DNA of 64,000 bases from Thuidium tamariscinum (Eukaryota; Streptophyta; Bryopsida; Hypnales; Thuidiaceae): NCBI GenBank assembly GCA_947034885.2, contig OX344751.2, positions 21,514,001-21,578,000 of the forward strand, in the 5' to 3' direction. The position numbers and the translations under genes are program-made. The notes beneath the pieces were generated by a model that made no database searches, was not told the origin of the DNA, and was given only the letters and a program-made list of their open reading frames with translations. Of this stretch, positions 1-56,477 are shown one piece after another; the stretch's first letter is position 1; each line of letters begins with the position of its first letter.

Positions 1-19
1 ATAGCATTGCGCTGAACAG

Positions 20-30187: not shown

Positions 30188-32835
30188 AAATTTTAGTTTG
30201 GGTTTAGCTTAGGACTTACATTCATTACAAGTGCGGGATATATATTCCGGATAACCTCTGGTGCTGGGCCAGGGGGTGGCATCTCTTCGTTCTACAATCC
30301 GACGGCATTGTATGATGCCGCTGTCCGGGGTGACAGAAATGAGCGTTACAGAGTTTTCCCGCGAAACTATGGGATCCGGATCTGGATACTCTGTCGACTG
30401 AGGTGATGTGTAGCTAGAGATGTAGATCATATCCCTTCCATACTATTAAACACAGTGTGGCCGGTTGAAATGAACAAATGAAACTGAATTGTAAATTACG
30501 TATCTGACAAGCAGTAAAGTTGAAAATTTTCAAAGCGCCGTTTTGGCATTTCTGTCACATTCAATTTACTTACTGAGAAGTGAGAAGGTTCCTTCAAGAG
30601 AAATGGGAAGGTTGTACTCTCCCCATTATTCTGACTGCGAGATTTTTTAGTTGTCCACAACAGCGAAAGTTTGACAGACGCCAGGTGCAGAGCTCAGCAA
30701 ATTGTGCTTGTTTTGGCACTGTATTCTTGACTATCTGAATGTGCTGTGCGGATCTCATGTGACAGATTCCTTTTCCGAGCGTTGTAAGAGCAGTTTCTCG
30801 AGGAAGCTATATCTAATGCAATACAAGTAGGAAAATCCGCCCAATGCCGAATTCAGTAACAGATGCTTGTATTTTGAGACTGCAATTTTTAGTCTGGCCC
30901 ATGACAGATAATCGGGTGTTTCTGACTGACGTACGCAAGCTCTGAACACCCCAAGAATGGGGCAGTAGTGTCTGCATCACCAGCCAGGACTTTCTGTCCA
31001 GTTGTGTTTGGTGTTCAGGAGAATTGTCGTAGAAGTAATGTAATGTAACTCAATGAGAGAAACGTGGGTCAAAGTGCTAAACCCTTCAGCTGTTTATTAC
31101 TTACACAGGGTTTTGTGCACAACATAATCAAACTTGTCTACCTGACTGCTCTAAGGAATCTCTCCTCTTGTGTTCCAAGTCAGAGCAATCCAAAAGTTGC
31201 GTATTGAGAAGACCATTCATTTGAGAGTATAAGAAAACCATTTGTCTGTTCTGTTGACATTTTAGTGATATTGCTGGGCAAGTGGGCATCATGCGCATTG
31301 CATTCCAGAGTAGGCCATGGAGTTCTCCCAACTTTCAAAAAGTTGGGAAAATCAATTTTTCATAGGGAAGAGAATCAATCGACAATAAATAATTAAGTTG
31401 AGATTTTCACCCGGCTGGCAGCCTGTGGCCTAGTTTGAAGTGGGGATCTCCTCTAAGCGCTCAAAAGTTCGGATTCTGGATGATGATAAACTTAGAGTGA
31501 AGAAATTCTTGAGTTGGATTATCGGAACCATTGCACCACCGTCTTGGTTTGTGACTGGGTACGTGTATCAAGACAACTTTCCTGATGACCAATTCAATAT
31601 ATGTGGTAAGAAAAAAATATTTTCAATGATATAAGCAATATGTGCAGAAACTAGACAATGAATATAGGTGGAACTCTGGAAGAATGCTATGGAACTGAAG
31701 TTTTGAGCCCGATGGATGACTTTAAGGAGGCTTGCTGAACGAAAAAAAGTACTCTTTCATTCAATTTTTTGGGAGTTACTTGAAAACATTTGTACGGTTG
31801 GTGCTGGATATTTCCTGATTGTGATACCATAGACTTTAATTTATATATATTAGAAGATTCATAATCGACAGATCACCCTCAGAATGTATATTCCCCACTA
31901 CTTGCTCTTCACTCTTAATGTGAATTTTAGCAATGAAGGCGATTTTTTAATTTTAACCCAGTCAGTGAAAGAATTACATCAACTCTCTACTGTGCATCCC
32001 CTCCGAAACCCAAAGGGTCGTTACTAAAGTTTGAGGTTTAGCCCTCAGAGGATCGATTGAAGGCCATTCCACCGACGTAGCAGCACTAGTTCGTGGACCA
32101 TTTCCTTGCGACAAGAGTGGAAAACAAACACTGCTGTCGTCCCAGGCACTTCCTGTTTAGGTTCAATAGATACTAGTCCCGACTCGACTAAAATTCGAAA
32201 TCCATGTCACAAGTTTTCTAACAATTCGACAATACAACTCTGTTGTGCTCGATCCCGTTTCATCAGTGACTTTGTTACTGAGTAAGTAGTGTGCAAAGTG
32301 CAAACAGTGTCATACTCAGCGCACAGCCTTCTGGTGGCGGCCATGTCCTCGCTGGAAGGACTTCAGTCGTTCAAAAGAACTCTCAAGATTGATACTTGGA
32401 GCTTGCAGAAAACAATCTGGTAGGACCTGCAATATTGGATGCTCGGTTGCTGGTTCCCAGAGAGAAGAGTGAGTCGCTAGAATAATCACAAACATGAAAA
32501 TACCGTCACCTTTGGATTCAATGACAAGCACCCAAACAACTGCCTGCGAATATGAGCGAACTGCCGCACACAACGTAAGCCTCACTCGATAAATTGCCAA
32601 TTGGTTTATATATATTCCTCCTGCTGCGGATCTCAATTTGAAATCTCTCATGAACAGTCCCCCAACTTACAATTAGGGTGTGTACTTCATAACCAATTCT
32701 AGTCATGAAAAATTTCGACATTAATTAATCTACATTGTCTCCATTTACTGTACACAGATATCTACGATTCGGACGAAGAACTAACGAATGGCTATGGCTA
32801 GATACCAACTCGAATTCTGTCGAGATCAAAAAAAT
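30188..32835. other. Intergenic segment between convergent CHS1 and CHS2
   Basis: No gene. It is homologous, in the same orientation, to 53325-56477 between CHS3 and CHS4. Shared landmarks include GTCCGGGGTGA (30325; 53457), GAATGGGG(C/T)AGTAG (30956; 54483) and the GGAAGGACTTCAGTCGTTC-like words (32352; 55962). It is about 500 bp shorter than the arm B segment and lacks the element inserted at 54258-54478. Confidence 0.75.
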
Positions 32836-34242
32836 CTACGCAGCCGTGGCGGGGGTGACCGCGGCGGCCTTGAGCACCAGCACCTCGAGCGTGAGGCCCG
32901 GACCGAAGCCGATGAAAAAACCATACTCGCTGCCCTCGCCCAGCGTAGAAGAACCCAGCTTCAAAGAACGCTGACGAATCTGGTCCAACACGAACAACAC
33001 CGAAGAGCTGCTCATGTTGCCGTACTCAGAAAGCACGTCGCGGCTGCCCTGCATCTTGTCCTTCGAAAGCTGAAGCTTCGCCTCCACCTGGTCCAGAATC
33101 GCAGGACCGCCGGGGTGGACGGCCCAAAACATCTCGTTCCACGCAGGAGAACCCACGCACTTCCGCGCCTCCGTCAAAAACTTCTCGATGTTCTTCGAAA
33201 TCAGACCGGGAACGTCCTTCATCAAGTGGAAAATCAGACCCGCCTCCGTCAAGTGACCGTCGATGGCGCCGTCGCTCTCAGGCAAAATCGTCTCACCCGC
33301 CCAGTGCACCTCGAACAGAGACTTCTCCGCCGGCTTCGGGTCGGAACCCACCACGTACACACCCGCGCCATCGCCGAACAACGCAGAACCCACCAGTCCG
33401 TCCAAGTGGTTCTCGTTCGGCGCGCGGTAAGTGACGGCAGTCACCTCGCTGCACACCGCCAGCACGCGCGCGCCCTTGTTGTTCTCCGCCAGGTCCTTGG
33501 CCACGCGCAGCACCGACGCGCCGCCGAAGCACCCGGTCTGGTACATCATGACGCGCTTGACGCTGGGCTTGAGGCCCAGCAGCTTGGCCAGCGCGTGGTC
33601 TGCGCCGGGCATGTTCACTCCGCTGGTGGTGGCGAACACGATGTGCGTGATGTCGGACTTGCGTCCACCCCACTCCTTGATGGCCTTGACAGCGGCCTCA
33701 GCGGCGAGCTTGGGCACCTGCACGACGACGATGTCGTGTCGTACGTTGAGTGAGGGCTCCATGTAGGTGCATATGCCTGGGTTGGCCTTGAGCACTTCCT
33801 CCGTGAGAAAGAGGTGTCGCTTGCGGATTCCCGACTTGTCGCCTGCTCAAGACAATTGCATGCATTTCATCAGATCACCGACGTACAATTCATGGCGTGG
33901 CAAACAGATCCATCGCAATCATGTCTATTCTGGTTCCAGCCAGTCCACAGATTCTCAAATGCGTACGAGGATTCCAAACTCTAACCGAATCTACTTGATT
34001 GGGAATGTGAGGGATGGACCGGTGTGTGACTTACAAATGCGCTTGAACTTTCCCTTGAGCGCTTCCTTCTCGCTGGTGTTGGTGACTCTGAAGAAGAAAT
34101 CCGGGTACTCCGACTGCAGAAACTCGGCAGGGGGCACCGCAGTGCCCACTCCCAGGACGCACGCCGGTCCATCGGCGCGAGGCTGACCCCGGAACACAAC
34201 TGGGGCCGGAGCCGGAGCCTCAACCTCTCCGCTGGGCGCCAT
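32836..34242 (-). CDS. CHS: Chalcone synthase, copy 2
   Basis: Same enzyme as CHS1. Exons on the minus strand are 34242-34035 and 33842-32836 (208 and 1007 nt), giving 404 residues. The start is [16 protein letters not shown]; the catalytic Cys is residue 174, and the Phe, His and Asn of the active site are kept. The C-terminus is [11 protein letters not shown], five residues longer than the CHS1 and CHS3 ends and shared with CHS4. The intron matches that of CHS3 (GATTCGGTTAGAGTTTGG) rather than CHS1 or CHS4. The gene is intact and convergent with CHS1. Confidence 0.96.
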
Positions 34243-34827
34243 TTCTAGCGAGGAAATGGCAATTGTGGAACAGAATTAAAGCTGCGCTAGCTTGTACGTG
34301 ATGAATGAATCGGAGAGTATTAATTTACGTCCACTTCGAGCAGGAGTGCAGCCCACTGGCACTCTGAATTGAACGAGCTAGCTATAGCTATTCCGTTCGA
34401 GTCGATTCGCTAGCTAGAGAAGTGGGTTCTAATGATGCTTGATATTGAGCTGCCTGAGTGCGGTCTGCGAAGTGAGGATTGCAGGGTCGGGCGTGCTCTT
34501 TATGCCAAGAGAGCGCCGCACAGTGAAAGAGCTGCTCGTCGCTGGAGCTTTTCGAGGAGCGTGGCGACTGACCAGTTCTGGCCAGGGAACAGGGGCCCTC
34601 GGCGAGGAAAGGGAGTCAACAGGGGACTGGAAGCGTGGAAAGGAGCAGACTTTGAACCTCCCGTATTGGAATACCGCGCGCATTTCAACTCGCGCTTTCA
34701 GTTGCTTTGAAAATCTAATTGTAGCCCCTCGTTACCTGTTGTGGAGAAGGGTTTGAACAGTAGTGCGCTCGACCCTCAAGGGACGCACCGAGTTCCCTTT
34801 CTCACCAGGGTTTGACCATTGAAGGTC
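34243..34827 (-). promoter_or_regulatory. CHS2 promoter (inner type)
   Basis: The 5' flank of CHS2 is the mirror image of the CHS3 flank (51348-51932), with no difference seen by eye over the compared stretches. An ACGT core (CACGTA on the minus strand) is at 34295-34300. No standard TATA box is clear; TTAATA-like AT-rich sequence lies about 80 bp before the ATG. The ORFs of 92-105 residues in this flank are identical in both arms only because of the duplication. Confidence 0.5.
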
Positions 34828-36116
34828 TCTGCCTCGGTGAGATGGTGATTGGTTCTCGGTCTGAAATGATTCAATTTTTGAACCACTACATGGATTATGT
34901 GCTTGAAAAAATAGCCACAACTTTTTTAAATCATTTGTGTAGGCTACCAAAGTGAAACTACTCATGATCAGAAATTTGTGTGAAAAGAGGAGGTTTTGTA
35001 TAGTAGTTTATTTGTGCATGAGTGTTTTGCATTTTTTCTTGCAACCAATGATTCACAAGGTACTAAAAGAAATGATTTCTATAGTCTCCAATTGGTCTTC
35101 TAAAGATTAATGAGACCTCCATAATAATTTTATTCTTGAAAGGGAAAGACCTACAATAAGGGGACATTGTGAAAATGGATCCACTTTATGGAAGATTAAT
35201 TACAGTGGGCTTTAAAATCATCCATTGGCAACTTTTTGGTCTCATTGTCCTTCTAAGATTAACCTTAAATGTCCAAGGCAATTTTTGAGCCTCTAGGAAT
35301 TTGCTGTAAAGTGAACAAAAAGTCAACTTTATGATGTGGTTTATCAAATTTTTTAAAAATGTAACCATACAAATTCAAATTCAACATATTAGAGATTACT
35401 TAGGAAAATAGAACATGACAATAGCACTCATGGATTGGAAGACTATAATGTTTGATCATGAGGGCGTTAAAATTGCAAAAGTAATGTGAAATCTTTCAAT
35501 CTTCTTTTCACAATTCAAATCTTGAAAGTTGGTGACCAAAAAAATATGAGGTGAAAGGGCCTAACATGCATTATAATCCCAATCAATTTATGGCTTCTCA
35601 AAATCTAATCTACGATTCTTTTAAGTGAATTTTTAGTGTGATTTTTTCTCCAAGATCTAGTGTATTTGAGGCTCATTTCCAAGAGCCCTAAACACTCAAG
35701 AAAGTCAAGATTGCAATGGGTACCCTTGCACAAAATCTTGAATAGAAAAGTCATAGGTCATTTTCAAAATCAGATTTTTGATGCTTAAAGTAGACTTTGA
35801 AAAAAATTCTCTAAAAATAAAAACTATTTAAAAATAGCAACTTGATTAGATTTTATTTAACTTCAAAGTTTTGCAAACACCATATTTGGGTGCCTTGGCA
35901 TTCAGAGGTTAAGGTGGCCCTTTTAGGGCATTCACACATATTTAATTATCTAAAAGTAATTGAATTTGAGACAATTGTAGATCAATTATTTTGGTATACC
36001 ACAACGGTAGCCACTATGCAATGGTGTTCAATTTTAAAGTGAGAATTTTTTTGAAGTCACAAGTAAGCTTGCTTAGTCAACTTAAGGCTATATTTGTGAA
36101 TCTATAAAGTGTTGTC
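34828..36116. other. Start of the 16.5-kb spacer between the arms
   Basis: AT-rich DNA that differs at once from the sequence beside arm B. It contains a dispersed repeat at 35240-35465. No gene. Confidence 0.45.
35240..35465 (+). repeat. Dispersed repeat, copy 1
   Basis: It matches 59210-59425 in the same orientation, with shared words GTGAACAAAAAG-like, TGTAACC(A/T)TACAAATTCAAA, AGATTACTTAGG-like and ATAATGTTTGATCA. The left ends (TTAACCTTAAATGTCCAAGGC and relatives) resemble the TTAA-flanked element ends found elsewhere in the window. Confidence 0.55.
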
Positions 36117-36324
36117 TTACTATAAGAAAAAGAGATGTTCTTAGTATAATCCTAGTAGTACTATAGCCCTATAATTAAAGACCATTATAGGAGATTTTTA
36201 GTAAAATTATACTAGAAATAAATATATTTTCAATAAAATTTTACTAAAAATCTCCTAAGAAAGTCATTACTTATAAGACTATACTATTAGAATTATATTT
36301 AAAATACTACTTCTACTTGTTATA
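36117..36324. mobile_element. CACTA-type MITE, copy 3 (decayed)
   Basis: About 205 bp, from TACTATAAGAAAAAGAGATG to CTACTTCTACTTGTTATA. The subterminal words (AGTATAATCCTAGT) and the inner palindrome around GGAGATTTTTAGTAAAATTA are shared with the copy at 5729. The CACTA terminus has mutated and no target duplication is clear. Confidence 0.55.
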
Positions 36325-36779
36325 TTTACAAGTCTATTAAAATATATTATGAAAGAATATTATACTGTAAGGGATATTAATATTTTGCATGGCCATGTCA
36401 TAGATCATCCTAGTCGAAAATGGATTCTAAAAGTACTTCAATCTATAAAATAGTTCAACTCATGAGTTTTTGGCATAGGGGGGGTACTCCTAATTTTTTT
36501 AGAATATACATGCAATCAAATGAAGGAATATTATAATTAACTTTTTCCTAAAATTTATAATTTTTTTTGAATAAAATAGGATCTCTAGAATAGAAAAAAT
36601 AGATTTATAATGAATGAATTTTAGGAAAGAATACGGAATTTTATGTTAATTTTTTCTACAATAGCATTACCAAAAAGAAATTTAAAAATTTCTAATTTTT
36701 GTCCTAGAGAAAGAATTTATAAATTTATCCTAGACATCTCGAAAGGATTTCAACAAAAAAAAAATCTGAAAAGTTTTCA

Positions 36780-37057
36780 CATTAGAGGATTTTTGAGGCC
36801 ATTGGAAGACTGCGGGTTCCCGGACTGCGGGAACATAGTTTCTACCGCATGAACAGAAATCCTACGTGGTCGAGAGAGTGCCATGTCATTAAAAAAATTG
36901 AATTTTTTTAGGGGGATTTTTTTCATATTTTAGGATCCAAAAAAAAGAAAATTGGTAAATGCTGGCCTGACAACGACCAACAGTTATGGAAACAGTTTTG
37001 GGGAATAGCCCCGAAATGGCCCTTTGGAGGTCTCAAGTCCTGAAGTCCCCTCTAATG
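36780..37057 (+). mobile_element. MITE with CATTAGAG ends, copy 3
   Basis: A 278-bp element from CATTAGAGGATTTTTGAGGC to CCCCTCTAATG. It shows the family segment GACTGCGGGTTCCCGGACTG, itself partly repeated, and ACAGTTTTGGGGAATAGCCC. Same orientation as the copies at 21193 and 45568. Confidence 0.65.
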
Positions 37058-37690
37058 ATTTAGCCCTATTGTCTTTGAAGCATCCTAAACAAAATTAATG
37101 AATGACTTTATGGGCAAGTAGGTTTAGGATTTTGTATGGATTTGTGACTAAGTTAGGTGCTCTAGGATCCAACTTGAAGCTATACAATTTTTGACATTTG
37201 AAATACTTTGTGATTGAATTTGCTTTAAATTTCAAAGCATTGTGTTAGTAAGTATTGTGATACAATTTCCCTCTTGTTTTGTAGACCTTTGTTTGTATGG
37301 GCAATTTGATGTCATGAATTTCAATATGACTTTAATATTTGAAAAAATATTTGAAAAACATTTGCGAATGTCATGTATTTACAATGAATATATAGGATAT
37401 ACAAAAATAGTGCAAGTTTGTTTTTCAAATGAAGCATAGGATATATGAAATTACAATAGGTGAATTCTGAAATTGTGGTAAATACAGCCCTATAGAAATT
37501 CCAAAAATTTACTTACATAGCCTCCATTTAATAGGGGTTTGAATACACGATACCAATGAACATTTTTTTTATAGTACATTCCTTAAGGAATTAGGGACCT
37601 ACATACCTCACTATACTTTGTAATCCTTATATATGTGCATCTATTTTTTTATTATAGGGTATATTTAGCTATTATTTCACAATAGATATG

Positions 37691-37795
<105 letters not shown>

Positions 37796-37989
37796 TTTAA
37801 ATTTTTTTTAAATTTTATCATTTTTATCATTTTTCTACACCCTATAGTAGTTAAAATTGAAATTTGAGATGTATAAGTATGTCCCTAGTGTAATTCAAAA
37901 TTTTATATGCATGTTTATGATTGATCAGTAGAACATGAATACTCTAATTAGTATGCTGAGTAATTTTTCTATTTGAAGATGGAAAATGG

Positions 37990-38713
37990 GGGTAATTGCA
38001 AGAAACACCTGTACTACTTCATGTCACACATTATAGGCTAATTCTATTTTTTGGCTATAACTTTTGTGTTGTTGTTCCAAATGATGCAAATTTTATATAC
38101 AACATATTCATGACTATTATGCATTTTGTCTAATTTTTTTGGAAACTTTAAAAAAATGTTTTACCATCCAAAAATAGTCCCCAATTTTATATTAAAATAC
38201 TCAATTTTGGACTTTTTTGAGCAAAGTTGCACCCAAATAAACAAATTTTGAGCTAAAAATTGGGGGCATGGTCTTCTAGAAGACTTGGAGCTATTATCAA
38301 AAGGAATTTCTAAAAATAGTTAGTTTTATGAGGGGTGAAAGTCCACAAAATGAACTTCATTCAATTAGCATTTCAAAACATATAGAATTTTATTTTGGTG
38401 ATTCTTTTGGTGAATTAACATCTCCATAAAGTTATTACAAATGAAAATTTTCATTTTATTTATTTATTTATAATATTTTTACTACTTAAAACATCAAAGT
38501 ATCGATTTTCTTGAGATTTGGCATTTTTTTTGGTTCTCTTGCTTCAAGAATTTTCCTATGCTTTCCCTTGGTGTTTACCTTCATCTTAAAGGATTATACA
38601 TTATATTTAATTTTTTTAATTTAAAAAATAATTTTTTTTAAAGTATTCCCAAAAAAATCATGAGTATTATTAAAAAAAAATAACAAATAGTAAAGGTGTT
38701 TCTTGCAATCACC
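37990..38713. mobile_element. Element with GGTNATTGCAAGAAACACC ends
   Basis: The left end GGTAATTGCAAGAAACACCT (37991) and the right end AAGGTGTTTCTTGCAATCACC (about 38693-38713) are inverted repeats of about 20 bp. The same terminus bounds the foldback element at 49172-50245. The interior is different and has no ORF. The flanking words ATGGAA on both sides may be a remnant of a target duplication. Confidence 0.55.
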
Positions 38714-39839
38714 CATGGAAGCTCCTCATTTATATTCTTCTTCCCTCACTTAGACATTTTCTTGTGTAGATTTACAAATTATATACCATAGATCATTATA
38801 ATGCATTGTATAGTAGTTGTAATATTGTAATATTCAAATAAATGATGCTATAGTAATTTGAATGTTTTTAAATTATTAGCTTCAGTAATTAAAATGTACC
38901 CTATGTAAGTGTTGCGTTGTTTAAAAAAAAATTGCTAGTGAAGCACCTCAAATTTAGTAATGAAAAGTAAGTAAAAGATGGTGGCAAGGTAACTTGGCTC
39001 ACTCACAAGTATGTGTAAACCACCTATCAACTTTCCTACCACCACTACTACTATAAACAAGGTTGATTAGGAAATTCCTTCATGGTGCCTTTAAGAAAGA
39101 GATTAAAAATTTATTTTTCTTAGCAAAGCTGGTAAATTGGTTGGTTAGTTGAGCCTTTACCAAGGTACATATAAGGTGTCAATGAAGCGCTATCAATGAA
39201 TGACCATTTAAACTCTATTTGAGTCTATAAAACATTCTTGCTTTTGTATTTCCTTAGTTACCTTCTAGTTCATGGTGATAAAAAAAGACAATATTCCCCA
39301 ATGTTGCTTAAGAATAATGTGAAGCTCATCAATGGTGTAGATGTGCACTTGACTAGTGAGTAGTGGTCTAGTGGATCACTCAAATCTATAATGAATGATA
39401 AACTTGAATTCTAAACCCCAAAATGATTACAAATTCGAAAGGTAAAAAGCCCTGTTTTTTTGGACAAGGGTGTGAATATGCATTATGTTGAATGAAACAT
39501 CATACACATCTACTGTGCATGTCTAGATAAATCCGTCAAGTTTGACAAGCTAAAAATATAAGAAATTCTGGAAAAACATGCCCTATTTATAGAGCAACAT
39601 TATAGAAAACATGTACAAAGAAGTTGTCAAAAGTGTGCCATTTGGCAGCCACGTAAGCAAATAGTGCCATATGGGATTTTTGGGCACCTCACAAAAATTT
39701 GAGAAAATTTTGAGAAAATTTTAATATTATTTTTAGCAATGTCAACTGAGACGTCTAGAAAAATTTTAGCTTTGTTTTCAGCAACATCAACTAGACACCT
39801 AGAAATTTTCTAAAACATCAATTGGTGCATCCTACAGAG
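38714..39839. other. AT-rich spacer
   Basis: No gene or bounded repeat recognised. Confidence 0.35.
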
Positions 39840-40095
39840 CAAGCAAGATTGGTGCAAATTAATTAAATAATAATAATAATTTTTCATTATCAATCAATTA
39901 ATTAAGATTTAGTTCATTATTAATTAATTAATCATTCAATTCATTCAATTAATTAATAGTTATTTAGTTCATTATTAATTAATTAATCATACATTTTATT
40001 ATTAATTAATATTTATTTAGTTCATTATTAGTTCATTAATTAATTATTTGATTCATTATTAATTAATTAATTATTAACTAATTAGTTTATTATTT
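39840..40095. repeat. Low-complexity ATTAATTAA-rich tract
   Basis: Many degenerate copies of TTAGTTCATTATTAATTAAT occur head to tail over about 250 bp. It is a simple-sequence-derived tandem array. Confidence 0.8.
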
Positions 40096-40337
40096 ACTTG
40101 TAAGAATGAAGATGAAAGAAGTCATATTAATATCTATGGTCTGCCCTTGTAGAGACAAAAGATATGGGATAACTGGAATGAACTCAATGAAGAAACTTCA
40201 CCATTGTAAATGTTAGATGTTGTTATAGACATTGTTTCAAATGTTGTTTTAGATGTTTGTTGCAAACATATGGATGTTGTATTTAACATATGGGTGTTTT
40301 TTCAAACAATCTACTTTGAATACAGTTCTTGTTTAAT

Positions 40338-43300
40338 CCTTTAAAGACCAACTGAAGTTGTGTTGTTTCAGCAACATAGTGATTTTAGGTAGCTCACTAT
40401 AAATAGATTTTTTTTTCTTTGAAATTTTCAAGCTATATGAAAACAAGATTTTTTCTTAATGCCTAGCCCTTTTCAAAAACTTTGGCTACATGGTTAAAAA
40501 ATCCTTATATGATATGTAACTTTTTTTAAATCAAGCAATTTGGGCAAATAAACAAAAATAATTTTTTTCATAAACAAAAATTTGGAATTTTTTTTCAAAT
40601 TTATACACGAGAGGAAATCTTTGAATCATTCTGTTCTGATCAATGAGATAGAAGTTATGAGTTTTAGTTTTGGGTAGTTATAGATTTTCTACTTTCAAAT
40701 AAACTTTGAAGTTCTTTATTTAACTCAAGTTTTCAATTTATCTTGAAAAAAATTTATTTCTTAGAGTTAGATTGTTTATTAAAACAATAAAACCATTGGA
40801 ATTGATTTTTTAAAATTCCATAACTAAATTTTTAACAATGTATTATTTTGAATTGTTCTCTACTTTTTATTTACTATTTTTTTCCTATATGTTGTACAAT
40901 TCCAAATGATCTTAAATTTTCAAGCATGTAGATAGCTTGCCTTTAAAAATGAATCCAAAAAAGCACAAACAACATGGAGAATTTTTCTTACAAATGTGAC
41001 CTCAGAAAGCGTAACTTCCTTGTTTTTTAGAGGGTCAAAAAAGAATTTTTATCAATTCAAATGCTAATATCTTGCAATCTAAATAGTGCAATATTTTGAA
41101 TTTTTTTCCCTACATCTTCTTAAATCAACACACAACAAGATTGTATGGTTTCATATTTCTAAAAATATTTTTTTCCTAAAATTTGGTATTTGTACTAAGA
41201 ATGGCTAATTTTAGAGAGGTTTTGGCAAAAACATAGTCAAGAAATTTCAAGGGTTAATATATCCCATATGAGTTATTGCACAATGGGGTCCCAATGAAAA
41301 TGGCGTTTTGGGATCCGTAGTGAAAATAATTTCAGCTTTGTCAACTTTGATAGCGTTCCAAAGATCCGAGACCTCAAAAATTGATATTTTCCTATGAAAT
41401 TTTTTACAACATTATTTGTAAGTGAATAACATGCATGTCAAATTTCAATGCCAAAAGATTTACAAAAAAAATTCAAAATCTACCAACATGTGTAGTGGTG
41501 AAAAACATTTTACTACTTCCAACTTTGATACCCTCCCAAGGATTGAGTTTCTTTTTTAGCCATGAAATTTTTGGCATAAAATAAAATCTATGTTTTTAAT
41601 ATGTGTAAAAAATTTCAAGGTCAAAAGATTAATTTAAAAAAAGATCTTTGAAATCTCCCAACATGCATAGTTTTGAGAAAATTTTAACAATTGCCAACTT
41701 TGACACCCTCCCAAGGGCTAAAAAATTGGTTTCTTACCATGAATTTTTATTTTGTGAAGTTAGCTCTATGTTGATAATACATATTCTAAGTTTCAAGTTC
41801 AAAAGATTAATTTACATCTACAATCTTAAGAACCTCATGATGAAACATTAAAATCTTTCAATCCATAGGTGGTACTACTGTATTTTCTTCTCCTAAGTCA
41901 TATCTAGCATCTCATTGCTTAGTTTGTATTGATACATAAATAAAAAATTTAATATAAGCTATTATAAAGTGAAGTTGTTGTACACTTAAGAGGCAATACC
42001 TAGAAGCTTAAGAAGGCTTCAGCCAAAAAACTGTTCAAGTGGGTCAAAGTTAGGGAATAATTTTGAAATTTTACCTTCTATACCCATCCATGTTATTTCA
42101 GAAAAAGAAGATGCGTAAGAACTACCCCTCTACAGTGTTTGGAAGATTGGTCAGTGTTTTATCCCCCCTCCCTAGGTGCTTTTCTGAACTTACCTATAGT
42201 AGAGGCAGCCCTGTTGCCAACGTGGTAGTGACCTGTTCTGAAGTGCGTTAAAGAAAATGAAACTATGTTTTAGCACGTGTTGTCTGCAATAGAGATGTTG
42301 CACAAAACAGAAACTCGTTTTTCAAATGACATGCAGTCGTTCAAGAAAACATCGAACTGAATTATTTTTCTGAGCCCAATATCCCATCTTCCACATTATG
42401 TCTTCAGAAACTACCTTGTTTTCTTCAAACATCCAAAAAAACAGGGCTTTCTACTAGTGCTCCTACTGTATAGTATAGGCTCTATATACTATATTTCTAG
42501 CAATGTAGCTTTATGGGTGATAATCACTAGAAAATTGATATAGTTGAGACGTCAACAAGAAGGATGCAGGTGAATTTTGACCAATTTATAGTCATTATTT
42601 TTCTAATTTCAACAAAGCCAAAGTAAACACTAATAAAGATCTAGTCTCCAACCATGAAGTCTTTCTAAGATCACAAGCAATGTTATAAATTGTGAGAATT
42701 TAATATGATCCAAATTCCTTGAATATAAAGGTATTTGCTTAAAAGATGCAAACGCTCAATCTTGAGAAATCCCTTAGCTTGAAAAATCCCCCACCATTGG
42801 ATATTGGAAAAAAAATGAAAGAACACCCTATATTATGGATTTGGTTTGTTTTTCAAAACTTAACATTGTTCAATGAGCATTGTTCAATCTCAAAAGGAAA
42901 TTAGGACCCTCCAAATGTTGTTGGTCTTTAAATAAATTAGAGCTATTGATGTTCATCAACTAGAGGGATGATCAATGTCACATTGTTTGGTAAGGATTCA
43001 CTGAGTGAAATGCTAGGAGTGTTGTTTTTTGAGTAGGAAGGTGGGAGGTGTGCTTGGATGCAACTATCCTTATGATTGTTACATTTGTCACAAATTGAAA
43101 TTCATAGAATATTACAATGATATGAATTTAAAGAGGGTCACATTGTAGTTAGAAAAAGACAAGGAGAATTTAGTGTATTATGATGTGGCTTCCACTTTCT
43201 AAATCACAATTTTTGGATAGTCAATAATTCATTGAAGTGATGGGAATCATTTTATGATATGGCGCATTTTAGGATTATTGTTCATTAATTTTTTGCATTT

Positions 43301-45499: not shown

Positions 45500-45567
45500 A
45501 CTACAAGAAAAAGAGGCTCTAATCAACACAAGATGAACTAATTTGTGTTGATTGTAAGAGAAATGAA

Positions 45568-45852: not shown

Positions 45853-48230
45853 ATTTCTTTTGTTGATTCAAGAATCCATTAAACGTATTCAATTAGAATT
45901 TTATACTTCATTTAGACATAGTAGTCTAACTTTAAAAAAAAATTAAACTATGAGTAGGTGAGAAATAAAACCAAATTTCATCTTCAATAATCTATTTGAG
46001 ATTTCAAGCCTCCAATAAAAATTTATGAACAAATTTCAAAGGGAGGTTGCAAGGGACAATTTCTTTGACAATTAAAAAATATCATATGGTTTGTTCTACC
46101 TACTTCTATCCCATTTGTATAAAGAAGTCGTCTTCTCTCCTCTCCTACCACCAAAATATGTGACACACAAAGATAACCTATCAATTTATGCCAAAAAACA
46201 AGATAACCTATCATGTATACACATGAAGTGTTCAAATATTGTAAATTTAGTACAAAACTTTGTAAATTTAATTATTATTATTCTATTCACATGGTTGGTT
46301 TGTTGATGTGACAACCTTGCTTGTATGGAGATTTTGCCTATACATGTAGTAGTCTATAAATTTAGATTTCTGAATAATAAAAATTGGACCAAATCTTGAA
46401 ATAAAATCTACATGGTGGTATTGATTATTTTTCCAAATCAAGATGTCCGGACCAACAAAAATAATAAAGATATTTCAAATCATTATCATGTTGTTTTATA
46501 CATTGTTTTATTTTGAAGTCTCTTCAATCTCTTTTTATACTTCCACTAGCATATATACTCTTACTTCTTTGTAGTCAAATTGTTATGTGATTTATAACAA
46601 CAAATAAATGTACTTAAGAGCATCTTCACAACAAATTGATTAAATTCTTTGGAATCTCTCTGGAACTATGTATGTTAAATAGCCTTCTAATTTCATACAA
46701 TCTTTAGGTTAAGATACTTGGATCCACCCTCATAGTTAATTAAAGCTTGTCACCATGCATACTTTTCTAAAGCCTCTAAGTCCTTAGAAGATTCATTGCG
46801 AATGGAGTGATAAAAAAATGCATTAGTTTCCATCCCCATATTCTACTTTCTTAAATATTCGGTTACTTTAAAGTACCATGTTTGTGCTTGAAACATAAAG
46901 TTATTAGTACAAAATGTCATACTTCTTCATAATACATGAAATCTCCATGCAAGGTCACAAAGTAGGTGACCAAGATGGATGTGTTCTAGATCACTATGCC
47001 TTGACATTAAAAAATTGGACCTAAGAAATGATTGAAATAGATTCTATAAGTATAATCCATGGATTTACAATATTTTTCTTTAAAAATTCAATAATACCAT
47101 AATGAGAAAATTTGCAATACTATTCATTGAAAACGTATCCAATCACTTTTTAAAAATTGGATGAAAAATATTTCTTCCATCCTATAATCTTAAATAAAAT
47201 CATCCAAACAAACATTTAGTTAGTATTAGCAATAGTTTTATACAGTTAATCTTTAAAAGACATTGCAACTATTTTTTATCAATTTTTTTTTGCGTTTCTT
47301 TGTCTCACTTTTTCATATGTTGACACTCATGATGCAAGCTTTTTATTTGTTGAAAATAGACATCTATTTATCCTTGAGTTATTTATGTAGTTGCAGGTAA
47401 CTTAAGTCAAAGATTGATTGGTAATCGTTTTTAATTTAGTTATAATTTTTAAACTATTTTATTTTATTTAGTAGGCTAAAATATATATACTAAAAATAGT
47501 AAAGATATTGTAGAAGGGAGAGAGAGGATGGTTATTATTATGGTGGTTGATGGGAGATATATCAAGAGGGAAGAAAGGAGGTAGTAAGCAAATTGAATTG
47601 AGGGTTTTGACTAGGGTTTTACTTAAGAGCTTGTCATGATGTAGTAGCCAAACTTGAGAGGGACTTGAATGTTGCTATATATTGTCTAAGCGTTGAGGGT
47701 TTAATACTAAGTGTGATGATAGTGTAGTAGACATGGGGATTAACATCTACAAAATATGCTTGATTTTTGGTATTTTTTTGGTCTCTTGCAAACATCTACT
47801 ACAACTAGGAGCTCAATGCTTTTCTTGACCAATCAAAAACTTTGCAACAACATGAGCAACAACCTTGTGACTTTTCCCTATCTAATTTTACTCTTTTCTA
47901 TTGTAACCATTGTCAATATAAATGAATAAGTACAATTTCAAAATTTCAAAATGAAGTGAAATTAGAATGCTTTGCTCAAAGCTTCGAAATAAAGTAAAAT
48001 TGACAAGCTATGCTCTTCTACTAATGGTACACATGCCTTCAAAGACCTCCCCAAAAGCAAATATTTGCCTTTCTCATTTAAAAATTATAGCTTGCAACAG
48101 TTAACCTTCAATAGTGCCCTTAAAAAGATTTAAAACAGTGAAAGGAATTTAATTGTCCACACTAAAACAAGTCTAAAATTTTGGATTGATCATGCATGAT
48201 ATGTTAGAAATTAGCAAGCTCAGGAATTAA
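45853..48230. other. AT-rich spacer
   Basis: About 2.4 kb without a supported gene or bounded repeat. A short direct repeat AGATAACCTATCA lies at about 46162 and 46202. Confidence 0.35.
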
Positions 48231-49171
48231 CGCATTAAGGACCATGGTTGATTTGGGGGAGGGTAAAATGTTTTGTAGCCCTAAGCTAAAGATGGAAAAA
48301 AATAACAAATTAAGATGCATTCCAAAGATCTAATGATAGTAATGAAATTGGCATGAATATTGAGGCCATTGAAGATTTTCTTGTTGGAAGATTTTTGTAC
48401 TTTTAGCCCATTTTTTGTTAGTTTCTTCAACCACTAAACTACATGCTAGCAAAGATTGTTGTAATTCTTGTCCCAATGCATTTGATTTGCCATAATCCAC
48501 ACCTGTCCCCTTTTGTTTGTATTCAAATTCATTCTAAGACTTTGGCTACCGATAAAAAAGTGTCAATATCAACCAAAAAATTGTAGACCAGTCCTTAACT
48601 CCTAAATGCCCAAACAATGTTTTTTTTGGCAGCATAGCAATTTTAGAAAGCTCACTACACATAGATTTTTTTTTTCTTTGAAATTTTCACACAACATGTG
48701 CCCAAGGAGTAGCTTTGAGGCCCAATAATTTTCATAACTTTTAACTACGTACATAGTGAAAAAGTTATTGAGAGATATGCACTTTTCATTGCTCGGTGGG
48801 CATTCCAGGCAACATTAAAAACTTCTTTATAGATTAATTTTTTAAGAAATTAAAAATTAAAATTGGCTTATTAGATTTTTATCTAAGTAGAAAGCTTTGA
48901 ATCATTCCATTTTGATCAATGAGTCAAAAGTTATGAAGAGTTTTAGTTTGGGATAGTTTGCAGCTAGTAATAGAATCCTTGCACTACAAAAAAAACTTTG
49001 AAATCTTGTATTTAATTCAAATTTAAATACTTTTGGAAAAAAATAAAAATTAGTAGATGTAGATTGTTTACTACAATATTTTAGCCATTGGGATTGGCAA
49101 ATTTCAATTCTATAAATAAATTGTTTACAATTTAGTATTTTGGCTCATTTTCTACTTCTTTCTACATAGGG

Positions 49172-50245
49172 TCATTGCAAGAAACACCGACCACTTTTGT
49201 AGCACTTTGCAAAATTTGTTCTTGTCCAATGTTATAACTTTTGATTGATGAATCCTATGCCCAAACCAAAAAAGTTGTTTTTAGAGTTTTTGATTGCAAT
49301 CATATTCTATATTTTTCAGAGTTTCAAAAAAATCATATTATATTTAAAATTTATTTTTGTTAATTTGTCACACTTTCAAGATTAGAGGTTTTTTATACAA
49401 TTTATTAGTTTAAATTAATTATTTTTGGTTGAAATTTCTGTGGTATCTTTTTGTAGTAGGTATACATGTCCCTATTAAAGGGCATCTAAAAAAACATTAT
49501 TTTATGACCTCTACATTAGTGCAAACAAGCCTCCCTTGTGCGCACACTTCAAAACATTAGAAATGATTTTGAACTCATTTTCTTAGTCAAACCTCATCAC
49601 CATAAAGTCTTCTCAAATGGACAACTTTTAGTTTTATTCAAAATTGTTTTTCCTACTTTTTACAAATTAAAATGTCAATGTATGCATTTTCTTTAGTAGA
49701 ACTCACTGTCGAAGATGATGTCCTAGAAAATCCATTCATTGACATTTTAAGTTGTAAAAAATAGGAAAAACAATTTTGAATAAAACTAAAAGTTGTCCAT
49801 TTGAGAAGACTTTATGGTGATGAGGTTTGACTAAGAAAATGAGTTCAAAATAATTTCTAATGTTTTGAAGTATGCACGCAAGGGAGGCTTGTTTGCACTA
49901 ATGTAGAGGTCATAAAATAATGTTTTTTTAGATGCCCTTTAATAGGGACATGTATACCTACTACAAAAACATACCGCAAAAATTTCAACCAAAAATAATT
50001 AATTTAAACTAATAAATTGTATAAAAAACCTCTAATCTTGAAAGTGTGACAAATTAACAAAAATAACTTTTAAATATAAGATGATTTTTTTGAAATTCTA
50101 AAAAATATAGAATATGATTGCAATCAAAAACTCTAGAAACAAATTTTTTGGTTTGGGCATTGGATTCATCAATCAAAAGTTATAGCATTGGACAAGAACA
50201 AATTTTGCAAAGTGCTACAAAAGTAGTCGGTGTTTTTTGCAATGA
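49172..50245. mobile_element. Foldback element with two arms of about 509 bp
   Basis: 49172-49680 is the reverse complement of 49737-50245, with a handful of mismatches and no net length change, around a spacer of 56 bp. The ends are TCATTGCAAGAAACACC. An uninserted counterpart exists at about 40861-40880 in the 3.5-kb element, where the two flanks are contiguous. The transcript would fold into a hairpin of about 500 bp. Long-armed foldback elements are often Mutator-related, but no 9-bp target duplication is clear here. Confidence 0.85.
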
Positions 50246-50550
50246 CACCATACTATTTTTTAATTGTATGTTATATAGTTCCAAATGATTTAGCTTTTGC
50301 AAGAAAGTAACCAACTTTTCTTGAAGAATGAATCGAAAGAGTAACCACCAATTTGAACTTTTTTTCATACAAATGTAACTTTGTGAAGTGCAAGTGCCTA
50401 ATTCCTTGCACTGCCAAAAAAATGATTTTTGTCAATTCAAATGCTCTTATCTTGCAATCTTCATGGTGAAAAATTCTGAATTTTTCTTACATCTTTACAA
50501 ATAAGTATACTACAAGATCCTATGGTTACACCGATACATGTGTCAAAAAG

Positions 50551-51007
50551 CATAACATTCAAGTAGCTTGAAGGGAGGCTACCTTTGCCTCCTTGTAGGC
50601 TTCATCTAAATAATCCATTTGCATAATTAAGTATAAGGTCCAAAATGAGGTTGACTGTTGGCCTCAAGCACTAACTACTTTCAAGAATCCTTGCTTGAGA
50701 GCTTCACTAACAAGGAAGTTAACTTAACTTCTCATATTTCAAGACAAGTTTAATTAGAAAAAACCCTCTCAATTCATTCATTTAGGAACAAAAGCATGTA
50801 AGTTTGTCAATCTTTTATAAAGGTTTTTAAACTCAGTTTTTCGAACCCACTCCTCAGACTCTAACATTTAATGACACGTGGTCTTATAGCTATAGAATGG
50901 TGTAAAATATTCCACACCATTTCATCTTTGCGATGCAATGATGTGAAATATTCCACATCATTCTCTCCAAGCAAAGGTAGATTAAATTCAAGCTATTAAA
51001 TGTTATG
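50551..51007. mobile_element. MITE with CATAACATT ends carrying two palindromes
   Basis: The left end CATAACATTCAAGTAGCTTG (50551) is inverted at the right end (TTCAAGCTATTAAATGTTATG, 50987-51007). The interior contains two short palindromes around AATATTCCACA(C/T)CAT at 50894-50922 and 50936-50963. The block is absent from the paralogous 41.15-kb sequence, which supports insertion. A relic with the same right end and palindromes lies at 54656-54825 in the CHS cluster. Confidence 0.6.
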
Positions 51008-51347
51008 AATGTTTTGTTTTTACTAAATTTTGGTACATGTATTTTGAAATGTTAGTTTGGGAGAGGTTTTGGTGAAAACATAGTCAAAACCATTTAGGAA
51101 TTTAATGCGTTAAGGAAGAGGAAGCACAGTTTCGTCCCGTTTTAGATTTAACTCTTGTGAGCAGGAGGCATTTCCTCACAGTCCCAAAGTCCATTTCTGC
51201 GTTGACAGTGAAGTCCACTGCAGCACTGAACATCAATCAGCTCCAACACTCACGAGCGTGGCCGACCCATTTTGTATTTTCACATTGCAGACATTAAAAT
51301 TTACAGTAAGTTTACATATCAACAGCTGAAGGGTAAAACCCACCAGT

Positions 51348-51932
51348 GACCTTCAATGGTCAAACCCTGGTGAGAAAGGGAACTCGGTGCGTCCCTTGAG
51401 GGTCGAGCGCACTACTGTTCAAACCCTTCTCCACAACAGGTAACGAGGGGCTACAATTAGATTTTCAAAGCAACTGAAAGCGCGAGTTGAAATGCGCGCG
51501 GTATTCCAATACGGGAGGTTCAAAGTCTGCTCCTTTCCACGCTTCCAGTCCCCTGTTGACTCCCTTTCCTCGCCGAGGGCCCCTGTTCCCTGGCCAGAAC
51601 TGGTCAGTCGCCACGCTCCTCGAAAAGCTCCAGCGACGAGCAGCTCTTTCACTGTGCGGCGCTCTCTTGGCATAAAGAGCACGCCCGACCCTGCAATCCT
51701 CACTTCGCAGACCGCACTCAGGCAGCTCAATATCAAGCATCATTAGAACCCACTTCTCTAGCTAGCGAATCGACTCGAACGGAATAGCTATAGCTAGCTC
51801 GTTCAATTCAGAGTGCCAGTGGGCTGCACTCCTGCTCGAAGTGGACGTAAATTAATACTCTCCGATTCATTCATCACGTACAAGCTAGCGCAGCTTTAAT
51901 TCTGTTCCACAATTGCCATTTCCTCGCTAGAA
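51348..51932 (+). promoter_or_regulatory. CHS3 promoter (inner type)
   Basis: Mirror copy of the CHS2 promoter. An ACGT core (CACGTA) is at 51875-51880, and an AT-rich TTAATA-like stretch near 51852 is about 80 bp before the ATG. A diverged relative of the distal part (about 51475-51745) occurs at 63530-63850. Confidence 0.5.
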
Positions 51933-53324
51933 ATGGCGCCCAGCGGAGAGGTTGAGGCTCCGGCTCCGGCCCCAGTTGTGTTCCGGGGTCAGCCTCGCGC
52001 CGATGGACCGGCGTGCGTCCTGGGAGTGGGCACTGCGGTGCCCCCTGCCGAGTTTCTGCAGTCGGAGTACCCGGATTTCTTCTTCAGAGTCACCAACACC
52101 AGCGAGAAGGAAGCGCTCAAGGGAAAGTTCAAGCGCATTTGTAAGTCACACACCGGTCCATCCCTCACATTCCCAATCAAGTAGATTCGGTTAGAGTTTG
52201 GAATCCTCGTACGCATTTGAGAATCTGTGGACTGGCTGGAACCAGAATAGACATGATTGCGATGGATCTGTTTGCCACGCCATGAATTGTACGTCGGTGA
52301 TCTGATGAAATGCATGCAATTGTCTTGAGCAGGCGACAAGTCGGGAATCCGCAAGCGACACCTCTTTCTCACGGAGGAAGTGCTCAAGGCCAACCCAGGC
52401 ATATGCACCTACATGGAGCCCTCACTCAACGTACGACACGACATCGTCGTCGTGCAGGTGCCCAAGCTCGCCGCTGAGGCCGCTGTCAAGGCCATCAAGG
52501 AGTGGGGTGGACGCAAGTCCGACATCACGCACATCGTGTTCGCCACCACCAGCGGAGTGAACATGCCCGGCGCAGACCACGCGCTGGCCAAGCTGCTGGG
52601 CCTCAAGCCCAGCGTCAAGCGCGTCATGATGTACCAGACCGGGTGCTTCGGCGGCGCGTCGGTGCTGCGCGTGGCCAAGGACCTGGCGGAGAACAACAAG
52701 GGCGCGCGCGTGCTGGCGGTGTGCAGCGAGGTGACTGCCGTCACTTACCGCGCGCCGAACGAGAACCACTTGGACGGACTGGTGGGTTCTGCGTTGTTCG
52801 GCGATGGCGCGGGTGTGTACGTGGTGGGTTCCGACCCGAAGCCGGCGGAGAAGTCTCTGTTCGAGGTGCACTGGGCGGGTGAGACGATTTTGCCTGAGAG
52901 CGACGGCGCCATCGACGGTCACTTGACGGAGGCGGGTCTGATTTTCCACTTGATGAAGGACGTTCCCGGTCTGATTTCGAAGAACATCGAGAAGTTTTTG
53001 ACGGAGGCGCGGAAGTGCGTGGGTTCTCCTGCGTGGAACGAGATGTTTTGGGCCGTCCACCCCGGCGGTCCTGCGATTCTGGACCAGGTGGAGGCGAAGC
53101 TTCAGCTTTCGAAGGACAAGATGCAGGGCAGCCGCGACGTGCTTTCTGAGTACGGCAACATGAGCAGCTCTTCGGTATTGTTCGTGTTGGACCAGATTCG
53201 TCAGCGTTCTTTGAAGCTGGGTTCTTCTACTCTGGGCGAGGGCAGCGAGTACGGTTTTTTCATCGGCTTCGGTCCGGGCCTCACGCTCGAGGTGCTCGTG
53301 CTCAAGGCCGCCGCCAATGTCTAA
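51933..53324 (+). CDS. CHS: Chalcone synthase, copy 3
   Basis: Same enzyme as CHS1. Exons 51933-52140 and 52333-53324 (208 and 992 nt) give 399 residues. The first exon and intron match CHS2, while the C-terminus (KAAANV) and the 3' flank match CHS1. Active-site Cys174 and the Phe, His and Asn are present, as are FGDGAG and GFGPG. The predicted protein is identical to CHS1 from the intron to the stop as far as read. The gene is intact and convergent with CHS4. Confidence 0.96.
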
Positions 53325-54257
53325 TTGTTTGTTTGGTTTCACTTAATTTTGGACGTTCATTCGAAGCGCAGCACATGTACTGGACAGCGGAAGATTTCTG
53401 TTTCCTTGAGCTGTATGTCGGGTGCTGTCTCTCCGTTCAAGAATCCATTGCCGTTGTCCGGGGTGATTGAAGTGAGCGTTACAGAGTGTTCCGAAATCGT
53501 GCCAGGATTCGGATTAATACGCTCTTTCAACTGAGGTGTTGAGTTTGCGAGAGATGGATTATAGGCCTTCTATGATTTCAAAAATGGCAGTTCGAGGAGA
53601 TCATAAACAAGGACTTTGTATTGTACATTACCTATTCAGTAATGAAAGATCAATTTTTTCAAGTACACATGAGAACGTCGGTCACTTGATTTTGAAGGGA
53701 GGACTCAATTGAGGATTTGTTGTTTTCGGTTGGTTTTGTTAGCAATCGATATCGGGATTTCAGTGGCTTGGAGTGCATGAAGGAGGATCGGTTGATGCTT
53801 AGGACTCGTTGATCCAACCCGCTTGAACCATGCCAAATTATTCAATTCTCAGAGCACTTGTTTTCTTTTGCATTTAGTATGTGATTAACATTCAGGCATT
53901 ATTCAACTGAAATCATTCGAGGGCAGTGGCGGGGCTGCACTGTCGTCTTTATTCACAATTATTGCGGAATTTTAATTTTGTATGTCTCCAATGGCGAGAG
54001 CTTTACCGACCGGTACCGTGTTCGGCACTGCATCCAAAATATTCTGGAGCTGAAGATGTTGTGGCGATTAGATGTGAGCTAGATTCTTTCCTAGGGTTTA
54101 TAATTAAGAAGCAGCTTCTCGAGTTTGGGGTGTTGCAGGACTCACATTTTAAAAATGGGTCCAAATGCCTAATGCACTAACTGATGGTTTTACGCATCAA
54201 TTTTCAGTCTGACCTTGGAGAGGGGAATATGCGACTGTACGCAAGCCCTGAACACCT

Positions 54258-54478
54258 GAACGTCACTGCCAGTTATAACAATTCCTACATTCTTCATTTC
54301 GTTAAATTGGCGGTAATCCATTAGTTTGTCACGTTCCAGAGTGCTTGGTCGGCCTTAAACCTACTTCAATAAATCCATACCTGTCCCTAGTCTGTGGTTT
54401 AACTTACCCTTTGTAACGGGACACATGTACCAATTTTGGCCGCCAGAATCATACCAATTTAACTAAATTGACGATACC
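54258..54478. mobile_element. Insertion of about 220 bp present in arm B only
   Basis: In arm A, GAACACC is followed within a few bases by AAGAATGGGGCAG (30945-30963). In arm B the same words are separated by about 220 bp. The inserted DNA has a TTCGTTAAATTGGCGGTAAT end like the MITE at 20-190 and a partly inverted counterpart (CCAATTTAACTAAATTGACG) near the other end. ACACCT on the left and ATACCT on the right may be a decayed target duplication. Confidence 0.6.
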
Positions 54479-54655
54479 TCAGGAATGGGGTAGTAGCGTA
54501 ACCTTTGTAACAAGTCGTTTTTAGTGTTCAGAAGACGAATCGCTGTAGAAGTGCAGTATAGTTATATTCCTTGTCACACAGATAAATGGCCTAAACCCTA
54601 AGGGGGGTTTTGCATTACATTCAGTAGCAGACTGTCACACTGCCTCCTAGCGGAT

Positions 54656-54825
54656 GAAATGGTGTGGAATATCCCACACCATTCCATCCAGCACCAATGG
54701 TATTCCACACCATTTAGTAACTAAAGTTGCAACTCCAAGAAATGTCAGATGAAATTATGTGATGGGGACTTCACCAAAGGGAAGGCAGTCCTTCCATAGG
54801 CTACTAAATGTTATGTGAATGATAT
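54656..54825. repeat. Palindromic MITE relic
   Basis: A near-perfect palindrome (AATGGTGTGGAATATCCCAC and its mirror) at 54656-54685 is followed by a half copy ending near 54714. The right end GGCTACTAAATGTTATG (about 54810-54826) resembles the right end of the MITE at 50551-51007. Confidence 0.55.
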
Positions 54826-56477
54826 TACGCTAATTTTATTAAATTGGCACAATTTCATTGAAATGGCACAGTGAATCCTCAAGCAAGGAAGGAAATGCAA
54901 TGATTTAGGGAGACAAGGGGAAGAAGGTGGAATCTGATGTGAGTAGACCACAGGATTTTGGATGAAAAGCAATATGCATAAGTACTAATATGCACATCGT
55001 GCTAATTACATGTAAATGTCAAATGGTGAATGGGTATCGCCAATTTAATGAATTGACTTTATATACTCAACCTTGTGTGATTGCATGCTCTTAGGAATCT
55101 CTCAATTTTTGTGTTCAAAGTCTTGTTGCATTATTTCTAGATTTTTCACATGGTAAGTTGTGCATTTTGGAAACCATTTACGGCATTTCCTCCACGCTAT
55201 TGTGTTCAATTACATGTAAACTTCTGTGGTATCATTCTCTTTGTGTTTACAAGATGCATCCATCGATCTAAGTTTAGGGTTTTGAATCACAATTTAAACT
55301 TGAAGTTCTTGCATTGGAAAGTTCAATAGATTTTTTGAATAGTGGCTTTGAGGTTGTTCATGGTCTTGTTGAAGAAGGCACATGTTCATCATGAAGGTGC
55401 AAGTAATATTTACATATCTCTATACCATTCCCACTTCAAAAATCTAGAAATGATGCAACAAGACTTTAAAATTTTAAAAATAAACTTTAAAAAATATGAA
55501 ATAGAATGAATTAGAAGCAACTTTCATTTGAGTTTTATAACAAAAAAATGTACTGAAAAATTTATGAACTTGTGCATCTCCTCCAAAACCCAAACCAACC
55601 CATATATCCCTATCACCAAGATACTTTTACCAAAAATGATCAGATTGTTGAACTAACAACTGCATTCTCAATTTCTCTAGTACTCTTGAAAGTCACCCAT
55701 TAGCCTTCTTTTTGGTGCCAGTAGTATCCTTACAGAGTTGATAGGGAATCTCGCTTTCAGCAACAGTTCTACCTTCGCAGCATCATAACCGGAACATGCA
55801 GTTTCAAAATCCATAGAAGAAGCCCTTAGTTTGTGCATTTAACATCACCTTCAATGGTACTCAATCCCTATTTGTCAATAAACACTTTACCTTCGAACCG
55901 CTGAAACCAGCAGCATCCGACTCACCGGAATATATCATGCTGACGGCCATGCCCTAGCCACTAGAAGGACTTCAGTTGCTCAAGAGAACCATGAAGATAA
56001 AAGTCAAGTTTAAGCAGCAGAAAAATTTCTCAAAGGATTCTGGAAAAACATTTGGATGCAAGATTGCTTCTTTCTAGAGTACAGACATTCGTTAACAGAG
56101 TAAAATTTCACCACCCTCGGCTTCTTAGATGACTGAAATATGCTCCACGCATGGTACTAAGCTGCACCAGATAAAATTTCCCCCCAAAATTGACACGAAC
56201 TGCCGCACACAACGTAAGCCTCACTCGATAAAACGTCAATTGGTTTGTATGTATTCCACCTGCTGCGGATCTCAATTTGAAATCTCTATGAACAGCTCCC
56301 CAATTGACAATCGGGGTATGTACTTCATAACCGACTCCAGTCATGAAAAATTTCAACATTAACTAATCTACATTGTCTCCATTTACTGTACAAGAATATC
56401 TACGATTCTGACGAAGAACTAACGAATGGCTATGGCTAGATACTATCGGCCACGAATTCTCTCCAGATCAAAAAAAT

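Follow-up and report, generated by a model that had tools for sequence, protein, structure and literature searches.

How did four neighbouring genes come to be paired one way by their upstream DNA and another way by their downstream DNA? The question is raised by a stretch of 64,000 nucleotides from the moss Thuidium tamariscinum (contig C3, 21.514-21.578 Mb; here called the window), which holds four intact chalcone synthase (CHS) genes, CHS1 to CHS4, arranged as two convergent pairs. Two types of 5' flank (a and b) and two types of 3' flank (p and q) are distributed among them, and all four pairings of a 5' with a 3' type are present, the two hybrids lying side by side in the right arm. We consider the best explanation, at a probability of roughly 0.65, to be an inverted duplication of a convergent pair, followed by a single flip between CHS3 and CHS4 and then by gene conversion.

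Pairings of flanks, intergenic segments and gene sites

The earlier note on this DNA had claimed that the 5' flanks pair CHS1 with CHS4 and CHS2 with CHS3 in inverted orientation, whereas in their C-terminal codons, 3' flanks and intergenic segments CHS1 goes with CHS3 and CHS2 with CHS4, in direct orientation. Both claims were borne out, the former by inverted BLAST matches (28039-30177/58628-56503 for CHS1-CHS4 and 32861-34831/53314-51344 for CHS2-CHS3) and the latter by direct BLAST matches (28791-30441/51932-53573 for CHS1-CHS3 and 32557-34243/56196-57883 for CHS2-CHS4), by site patterns and by alignment. Calculated without gap columns, 5' flank identity was 87.6% for CHS1-CHS4 (92 gap columns) and 99.8% (588/589) for CHS2-CHS3, and 3' flank identity was 75.8% (175/231) for CHS1-CHS3 and 90.3% (251/278) for CHS2-CHS4. 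Three landmark words said to follow the same order in both arms were each found exactly twice in a word search, on the plus strand only and at most 2 bases from the places claimed: GTCCGGGGTGA at 30323 and 53456, GAATGGGG(C/T)AGTAG at 30955 and 54483, and AAGGACTTCAGT at 32356 and 55965.

Collinearity of the intergenic segment with the inverted arms, which the earlier note had named as the finding that would speak against its proposal, is not what alignment gave. The left and right intergenic segments scored 1787 in direct orientation against 1108 ± 22 for 40 shuffles (z 30.8), and 1124 against 1104 ± 20 in inverted orientation (z 1.0). Removal of the 3'-flank blocks left z values of 12.2 (direct) and -0.2 (inverted) for the inner part, and leaving out a dispersed repeat (about 205 bp) that lies in the right segment gave 34.3 and 1.4. 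A first look at the genome gave 1163 candidates for this repeat; 40 of them were scored, and 38 proved to be the same repeat at 93-97%. It was not among the matches for the left intergenic segment. Direct similarity comes in blocks along the entire segment.

Within the genes, the partner change is bracketed by few sites. Four columns of the core alignment, all intronic (240, 262, 263 and 266), unite CHS1 with CHS4 and CHS2 with CHS3 (14/23 pattern); columns 267-1304 contain zero informative sites, columns 1305 and 1326 show a 12/34 pattern, and a 13/24 pattern holds from column 1371 onward. Exon 1 has no 14/23 site, only CHS1 departing from the other three. Because exon 2 is almost identical among all five local copies (CHS1 to CHS4 and W5, a plus-strand copy whose exons 1 and 2 lie about 0.2 and 0.8 kb beyond the right end of the window), a crossover can be placed only to about 1.1 kb, at the intron end or in exon 2. 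CHS3 and CHS4, the convergent inverted copies bordering the segment that would have been turned, are 98.7% identical in exon 2.

Each of the four genes has, by splicing and translation, a single intron (190-192 bp) and a coding sequence of 399-404 codons. CHS1, the one tested out of the four proteins, scored 326.6 and 202.7 bits against Pfam Chal_sti_synt_N and Chal_sti_synt_C (cut-offs 27 and 27), and the solved structures closest to its exon 2 part, 6dx7 and 9jl6 (650.9 bits each) and 9kah (650.7), are all chalcone synthases, 6dx7 being the Physcomitrella patens enzyme according to an excerpt of PMC8580882. From these domains and nearest structures, CHS1 to CHS4 are predicted to be chalcone synthases, plant type III polyketide synthases.

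Polarity and the order of events

A genome search found 18 CHS copies with exon 2 identity of at least 93%, five at this locus and 13 elsewhere. The flanks of CHS1 to CHS4 were compared with those of 10 other copies (W5 and nine of the 13, the four omitted being close relatives of included ones), with 40 shuffles. The 5' flank exceeded all 40 shuffles against 7 of the 10 copies for CHS2 and 6 of 10 for CHS3, and against 0/10 for both CHS1 and CHS4; the 3' flank did so against 5/10 for CHS2 and 6/10 for CHS4, and against 0/10 for both CHS1 and CHS3. Comparison of all 18 copies, with 12 shuffles each, gave an outcome alike in kind, and a genome search with flank a matched CHS1 and CHS4 only. Start codons of copies other than CHS1 to CHS4 were extrapolated, and most do not fall on an ATG; for those copies the 5' flanks, and the figures for exon 1 and the intron, are therefore approximate, and exon 1 identities were taken from BLAST. 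Types b and q are those common to other copies and are united on CHS2, and CHS1 carries a and p; therefore, CHS3 (b/p) and CHS4 (a/q) are reciprocal hybrids, and the flip is assigned to the right arm because of the flank types on other CHS copies.

Histories composed of flips between opposite-strand genes and of flank conversions were enumerated. The shortest that leads to the observed order is an inverted duplication with the b sides inside, plus a single CHS3-CHS4 flip. A direct duplication reaches this order by two 5' conversions and never by flips alone, because the outermost flanks stay in place however many flips occur. Flip-only histories were rejected as unable to reach it when the starting point was a direct duplication, as well as when it was an inverted duplication whose a sides faced inward. 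Thus, a convergent pair, CHS1 (a/p) and CHS2 (b/q), would have been duplicated in inverted orientation, b sides inward, and homologous recombination between right-arm CHS3 and CHS4, inside the intron or exon 2, would later have turned the roughly 3 kb between them. The result would be two reciprocal hybrids, CHS3 with a b front and a p tail and CHS4 with an a front and a q tail, and gene conversion among the copies would afterwards have kept the coding exons near-identical, masking the crossover. The pairings, the reciprocal combinations of flanks, their polarity and the homogenisation of exon 2 are observed; that a single crossover rather than two conversions produced the hybrids is something we infer, as is its timing. 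The earlier note's proposal of an inverted duplication with a flip in one arm gains from being the shortest enumerated history, with polarity placing the flip in the right arm; it is held back by the exon homogenisation that hides the crossover and by two 5' conversions, which remain its rival.

Several observations weigh against the flip. The crossover junction itself is not visible in the sequence, and exon 1 of CHS4 is identical to that of CHS2 and CHS3 and no closer to that of CHS1. Many of the 3' polarity scores top the shuffles only narrowly, so that the 5' side bears most of the polarity weight. Divergence is also uneven, falling from 99.8% identity (5', CHS2-CHS3) through 90.3% (3', CHS2-CHS4) and 87.6% (5', CHS1-CHS4) to 75.8% (3', CHS1-CHS3). 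A single inverted duplication should have made all these flanks equally old, barring later conversion or constraint, whereas a model with two 5' conversions predicts younger 5' flanks, as found. Conversion spreading outward from the genes can explain the uneven divergence, yet it weakens the argument for a flip; the near-complete identity of the CHS2 and CHS3 5' flanks is the product of a recent conversion and is hardly informative about the first duplication event. Finally, CHS1 and CHS3 showed some similarity past the border in global alignments, 12/200 shuffles reaching the score at 400 bp and 0/60 at 1200 bp.

The strongest alternative, possible although rather unlikely, is a direct duplication of the pair followed by two non-reciprocal conversions, in which the 5' flank of CHS4 was copied from CHS1 and that of CHS3 from CHS2. 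It needs just two steps in the enumeration, and conversion is plainly active here, since CHS2 and CHS3, besides their shared 5' flank, show no difference between the start codon and core column 1250. The lower divergence of the 5' flanks relative to the CHS1-CHS3 3' flank and the longer CHS1-CHS3 comparisons that score above shuffles past the border also favour it. However, two events are required, each copying 0.6-0.9 kb of flank without homology at its outer end, and the displaced flanks have left no clear trace. BLAST within 3 kb gave zero CHS1-CHS3 matches and, for CHS2-CHS4, one match of 193 bp and six of 24-58 bp. The 193-bp match (35266-35458/59226-59417) was rejected as a sign of direct duplication, being a high-copy dispersed repeat: the repeat at 35266-35900 and 59226-59417 had 4962 first-look candidates in the genome, and its CHS2-side copy shares 84-87% identity with 39 of the 40 other copies listed (about 630 bp), against 80% with the CHS4-side copy (193 bp).

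Homology between CHS1 and CHS4 fades outward, which likewise argues against this alternative. Their similarity extends about 110-130 bp past the borders (27923-28031/58631-58761), and 0/200 shuffles attain the 150-bp score in either global or local alignment; in the remaining five pairings, over the first 150 bp past the BLAST borders, 87-195 of 200 shuffles reach the global score and 35-187 of 200 the local one. When the 1200-bp comparison was repeated against controls shuffled locally, the score was reached by 4/100 (permissive alignment) and 93/100 (strict) of them for CHS1-CHS3, and by 8/100 and 0/100 for CHS1-CHS4. The CHS1-CHS3 signal past the border was set aside on these figures as probably due to composition, although it is not disproved. 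An excess of CHS2-CHS3 similarity at 2.4-4 kb from the border was also discarded, the strict match at 4 kb being a repeat (37989-38511) with more copies at 49.2, 49.7-50.2 and 59.5 kb.

Insertion of the CHS3-CHS4 segment in the wrong orientation during assembly is decidedly unlikely. Assemblers do misorient DNA at convergent near-identical genes; the genome, however, comprises 363 Mb in 19 contigs with no N in the window, which suggests a long-read assembly, and the longest agreement between CHS3 and CHS4 spans at most 510 columns of the core alignment, far below long-read length. Highly improbable is an inverted duplication followed by 3'-side conversion of CHS3 by CHS1 and of CHS4 by CHS2, the two together replacing the right intergenic segment: it takes two steps when only conversions are enumerated, but the two tracts would each need to cover part of a single continuous segment, copied in opposite orientation, and join up, and direct similarity occurs in blocks throughout that segment.

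Exon homogenisation and the wider CHS family

Exon 2 is homogenised at this locus and beyond it. In BLAST comparisons, identity between W5 and CHS1 is 99.1% in exon 2 (992 bp) and 87.3% in exon 1 (166 bp); between the two genes of a convergent CHS pair on contig C1 it is 100% (1002 bp) and 88.3% (171 bp), respectively. Outside its exons, the C1 pair gave no BLAST match at E up to 0.001 in a 10-kb stretch, save one of 30 bp outside the genes. About 75 kb from this pair there is also a broken CHS copy (C1:27967939-27969038), in three matched pieces, one of which contains a stop codon. Among the 18 copies, T at column 1305 is found in CHS3 and CHS4 only (the base there in one copy from outside the locus differs again) and T at column 1326 in CHS1 and CHS2 only; these two synonymous exon 2 changes, two sites only, point to exchange inside each arm and so speak for the flip.

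Neighbouring intact CHS genes, at most 34 kb apart, lie on opposite strands in 10 of 11 pairs (W, 4; C1, 1; C7, 5; C3, 1), and strand alternation holds across CHS1 to CHS4 and W5. The binomial probability is 0.006; the test was post hoc, and the pairs are not independent of one another. Contig C7 carries a CHS palindrome in which convergent copies sit in arms that are 99.5% identical and at least 3537 bp long, separated by a spacer of 2.7 kb. It also carries, at 10.73-10.76 Mb, a CHS trio whose middle gene is identical to one neighbour across about 700 bp of 5' flank and closer to the other at 300-600 bp of 3' flank. This is a second, comparable change of flank partner, although three genes cannot prove a flip.

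Two further inverted structures were noted. Positions 49171-50246 of the window (about 1.08 kb) match their own reverse complement at 94.6%, perhaps as a fold-back transposable element, and, left of the CHS cluster, 7177-8718 has an inverted duplicate of about 1.6 kb at 86% (L032 960-2539; C3:21504960-21506539).

Table 1. Features of the CHS locus and related copies (window positions unless a contig is named)
Feature	Position	Strand	Description or basis
CHS1	28792-30187	+	two exons, 401 amino acids; 5' flank a, 3' flank p; C-terminus AAANV
CHS2	32836-34242	-	404 amino acids; 5' flank b, 3' flank q
CHS3	51933-53324	+	399 amino acids; 5' flank b with 3' flank p (putative recombinant)
CHS4	56478-57882	-	404 amino acids; 5' flank a with 3' flank q (putative reciprocal recombinant)
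5' flank type a of CHS1	28039-28791	+	weaker CHS4 homology outward to about 27923
5' flank type a of CHS4	57883-58628	-	weaker homology reaching about 58761
5' flank type b of CHS2	34243-34831	-	588/589 identical to 51344-51932; also related to the 5' flanks that other CHS copies carry
5' flank type b of CHS3	51344-51932	+	flank alignment; comparison with other copies
Left intergenic segment, p to q	30188-32835		flank and intergenic alignments
Right intergenic segment (putative flipped segment)	53325-56477		runs the same way as the left one despite inverted 5' flanks
Dispersed repeat, about 205 bp, right intergenic segment	54609-54817		genome search
Partner-switch interval, CHS3 (intron end and most of exon 2)	52192-53297	+	last 14/23 site 52192, first 13/24 site 53297
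Partner-switch interval, CHS4	56520-57625	-	site patterns
Convergent C1 CHS pair, exon 2	L030 (C1:27885501-27895500) 3344-4345 and 6470-7471		BLAST
C7 CHS palindrome arms	L031 (C7:14859001-14869000) 1-3537 and 6271-9807		BLAST; arms reach edge of stretch
CHS trio with partner change	C7:10730184-10756418 (L021, L022, L023)		flank comparison

Relation to known systems and significance

Inversion by non-allelic homologous recombination (NAHR) between inverted repeats is familiar from int22h in human factor VIII and from the isomers of the chloroplast inverted repeat. As in those cases, crossing over of inverted copies would here turn the intervening unique DNA and exchange flanks; those inversions coexist as alternatives, whereas a single arrangement is seen at the moss locus.

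Among plant CHS genes, the closest parallel is the soybean I locus, an inverted CHS1-3-4 / CHS4-3-1 cluster in the portions of PMC6710647 and PMC3804491 available, where NAHR between non-identical CHS copies produced hybrid CHS genes and large deletions (excerpt of PMC6710647). As far as these excerpts go, the two loci share an inverted CHS cluster, hybrid CHS genes (made by recombination in soybean and putatively so in the moss), and a switch located by site patterns. They differ in that the soybean repeat arms are identical over 10.91 kb, whereas the moss arms are diverged outside the genes, and in that NAHR between tandem-oriented soybean copies gave 138-kb deletions, whereas the moss event would be an inversion. 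The soybean locus, according to the same excerpts, makes small interfering RNAs (siRNAs); the near-identical long arms, intergenic DNA included, of a siRNA-type locus are not found here, the intergenic DNA being diverged and direct rather than inverted.

In Physcomitrella, neighbouring tandemly arrayed copies are held to evolve in concert by gene conversion, a view repeated in the part of PMC3045890 available. The likeness, to that extent, is that strong similarity of adjacent copies in a moss is read as gene conversion; unlike in those arrays as described there, the homogenised stretch ends at exon 2 (W5 and the C1 pair), and flank partners are swapped as well. The mechanism proposed, NAHR and gene conversion between inverted paralogues, is of a known kind; what is new is the product, an inversion, together with its polarity. 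Searches of open-licence literature yielded no report on this locus or on flipped CHS pairs in mosses, from which absence elsewhere does not follow.

It is a speculative and quite unlikely extension that convergent CHS pairs act as recurrent inversion switches, with exon 2, kept alike by conversion, as a standing recombination site at which two promoters are re-paired with two tails, and with both orientations present in populations and differing in CHS expression; repeated flipping and living isomers, which the earlier note had raised, are a guess.

In sum, one locus records how inverted gene copies can trade upstream and downstream regions with no gene lost. It belongs to a wider tendency of the genome, in which adjacent CHS genes mostly lie on opposite strands and, in two cases, exon 2 is homogenised and exon 1 and the flanks have diverged. 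This bears on how such gene families stay functional, and a CHS gene tree based on exon 2 can mislead.

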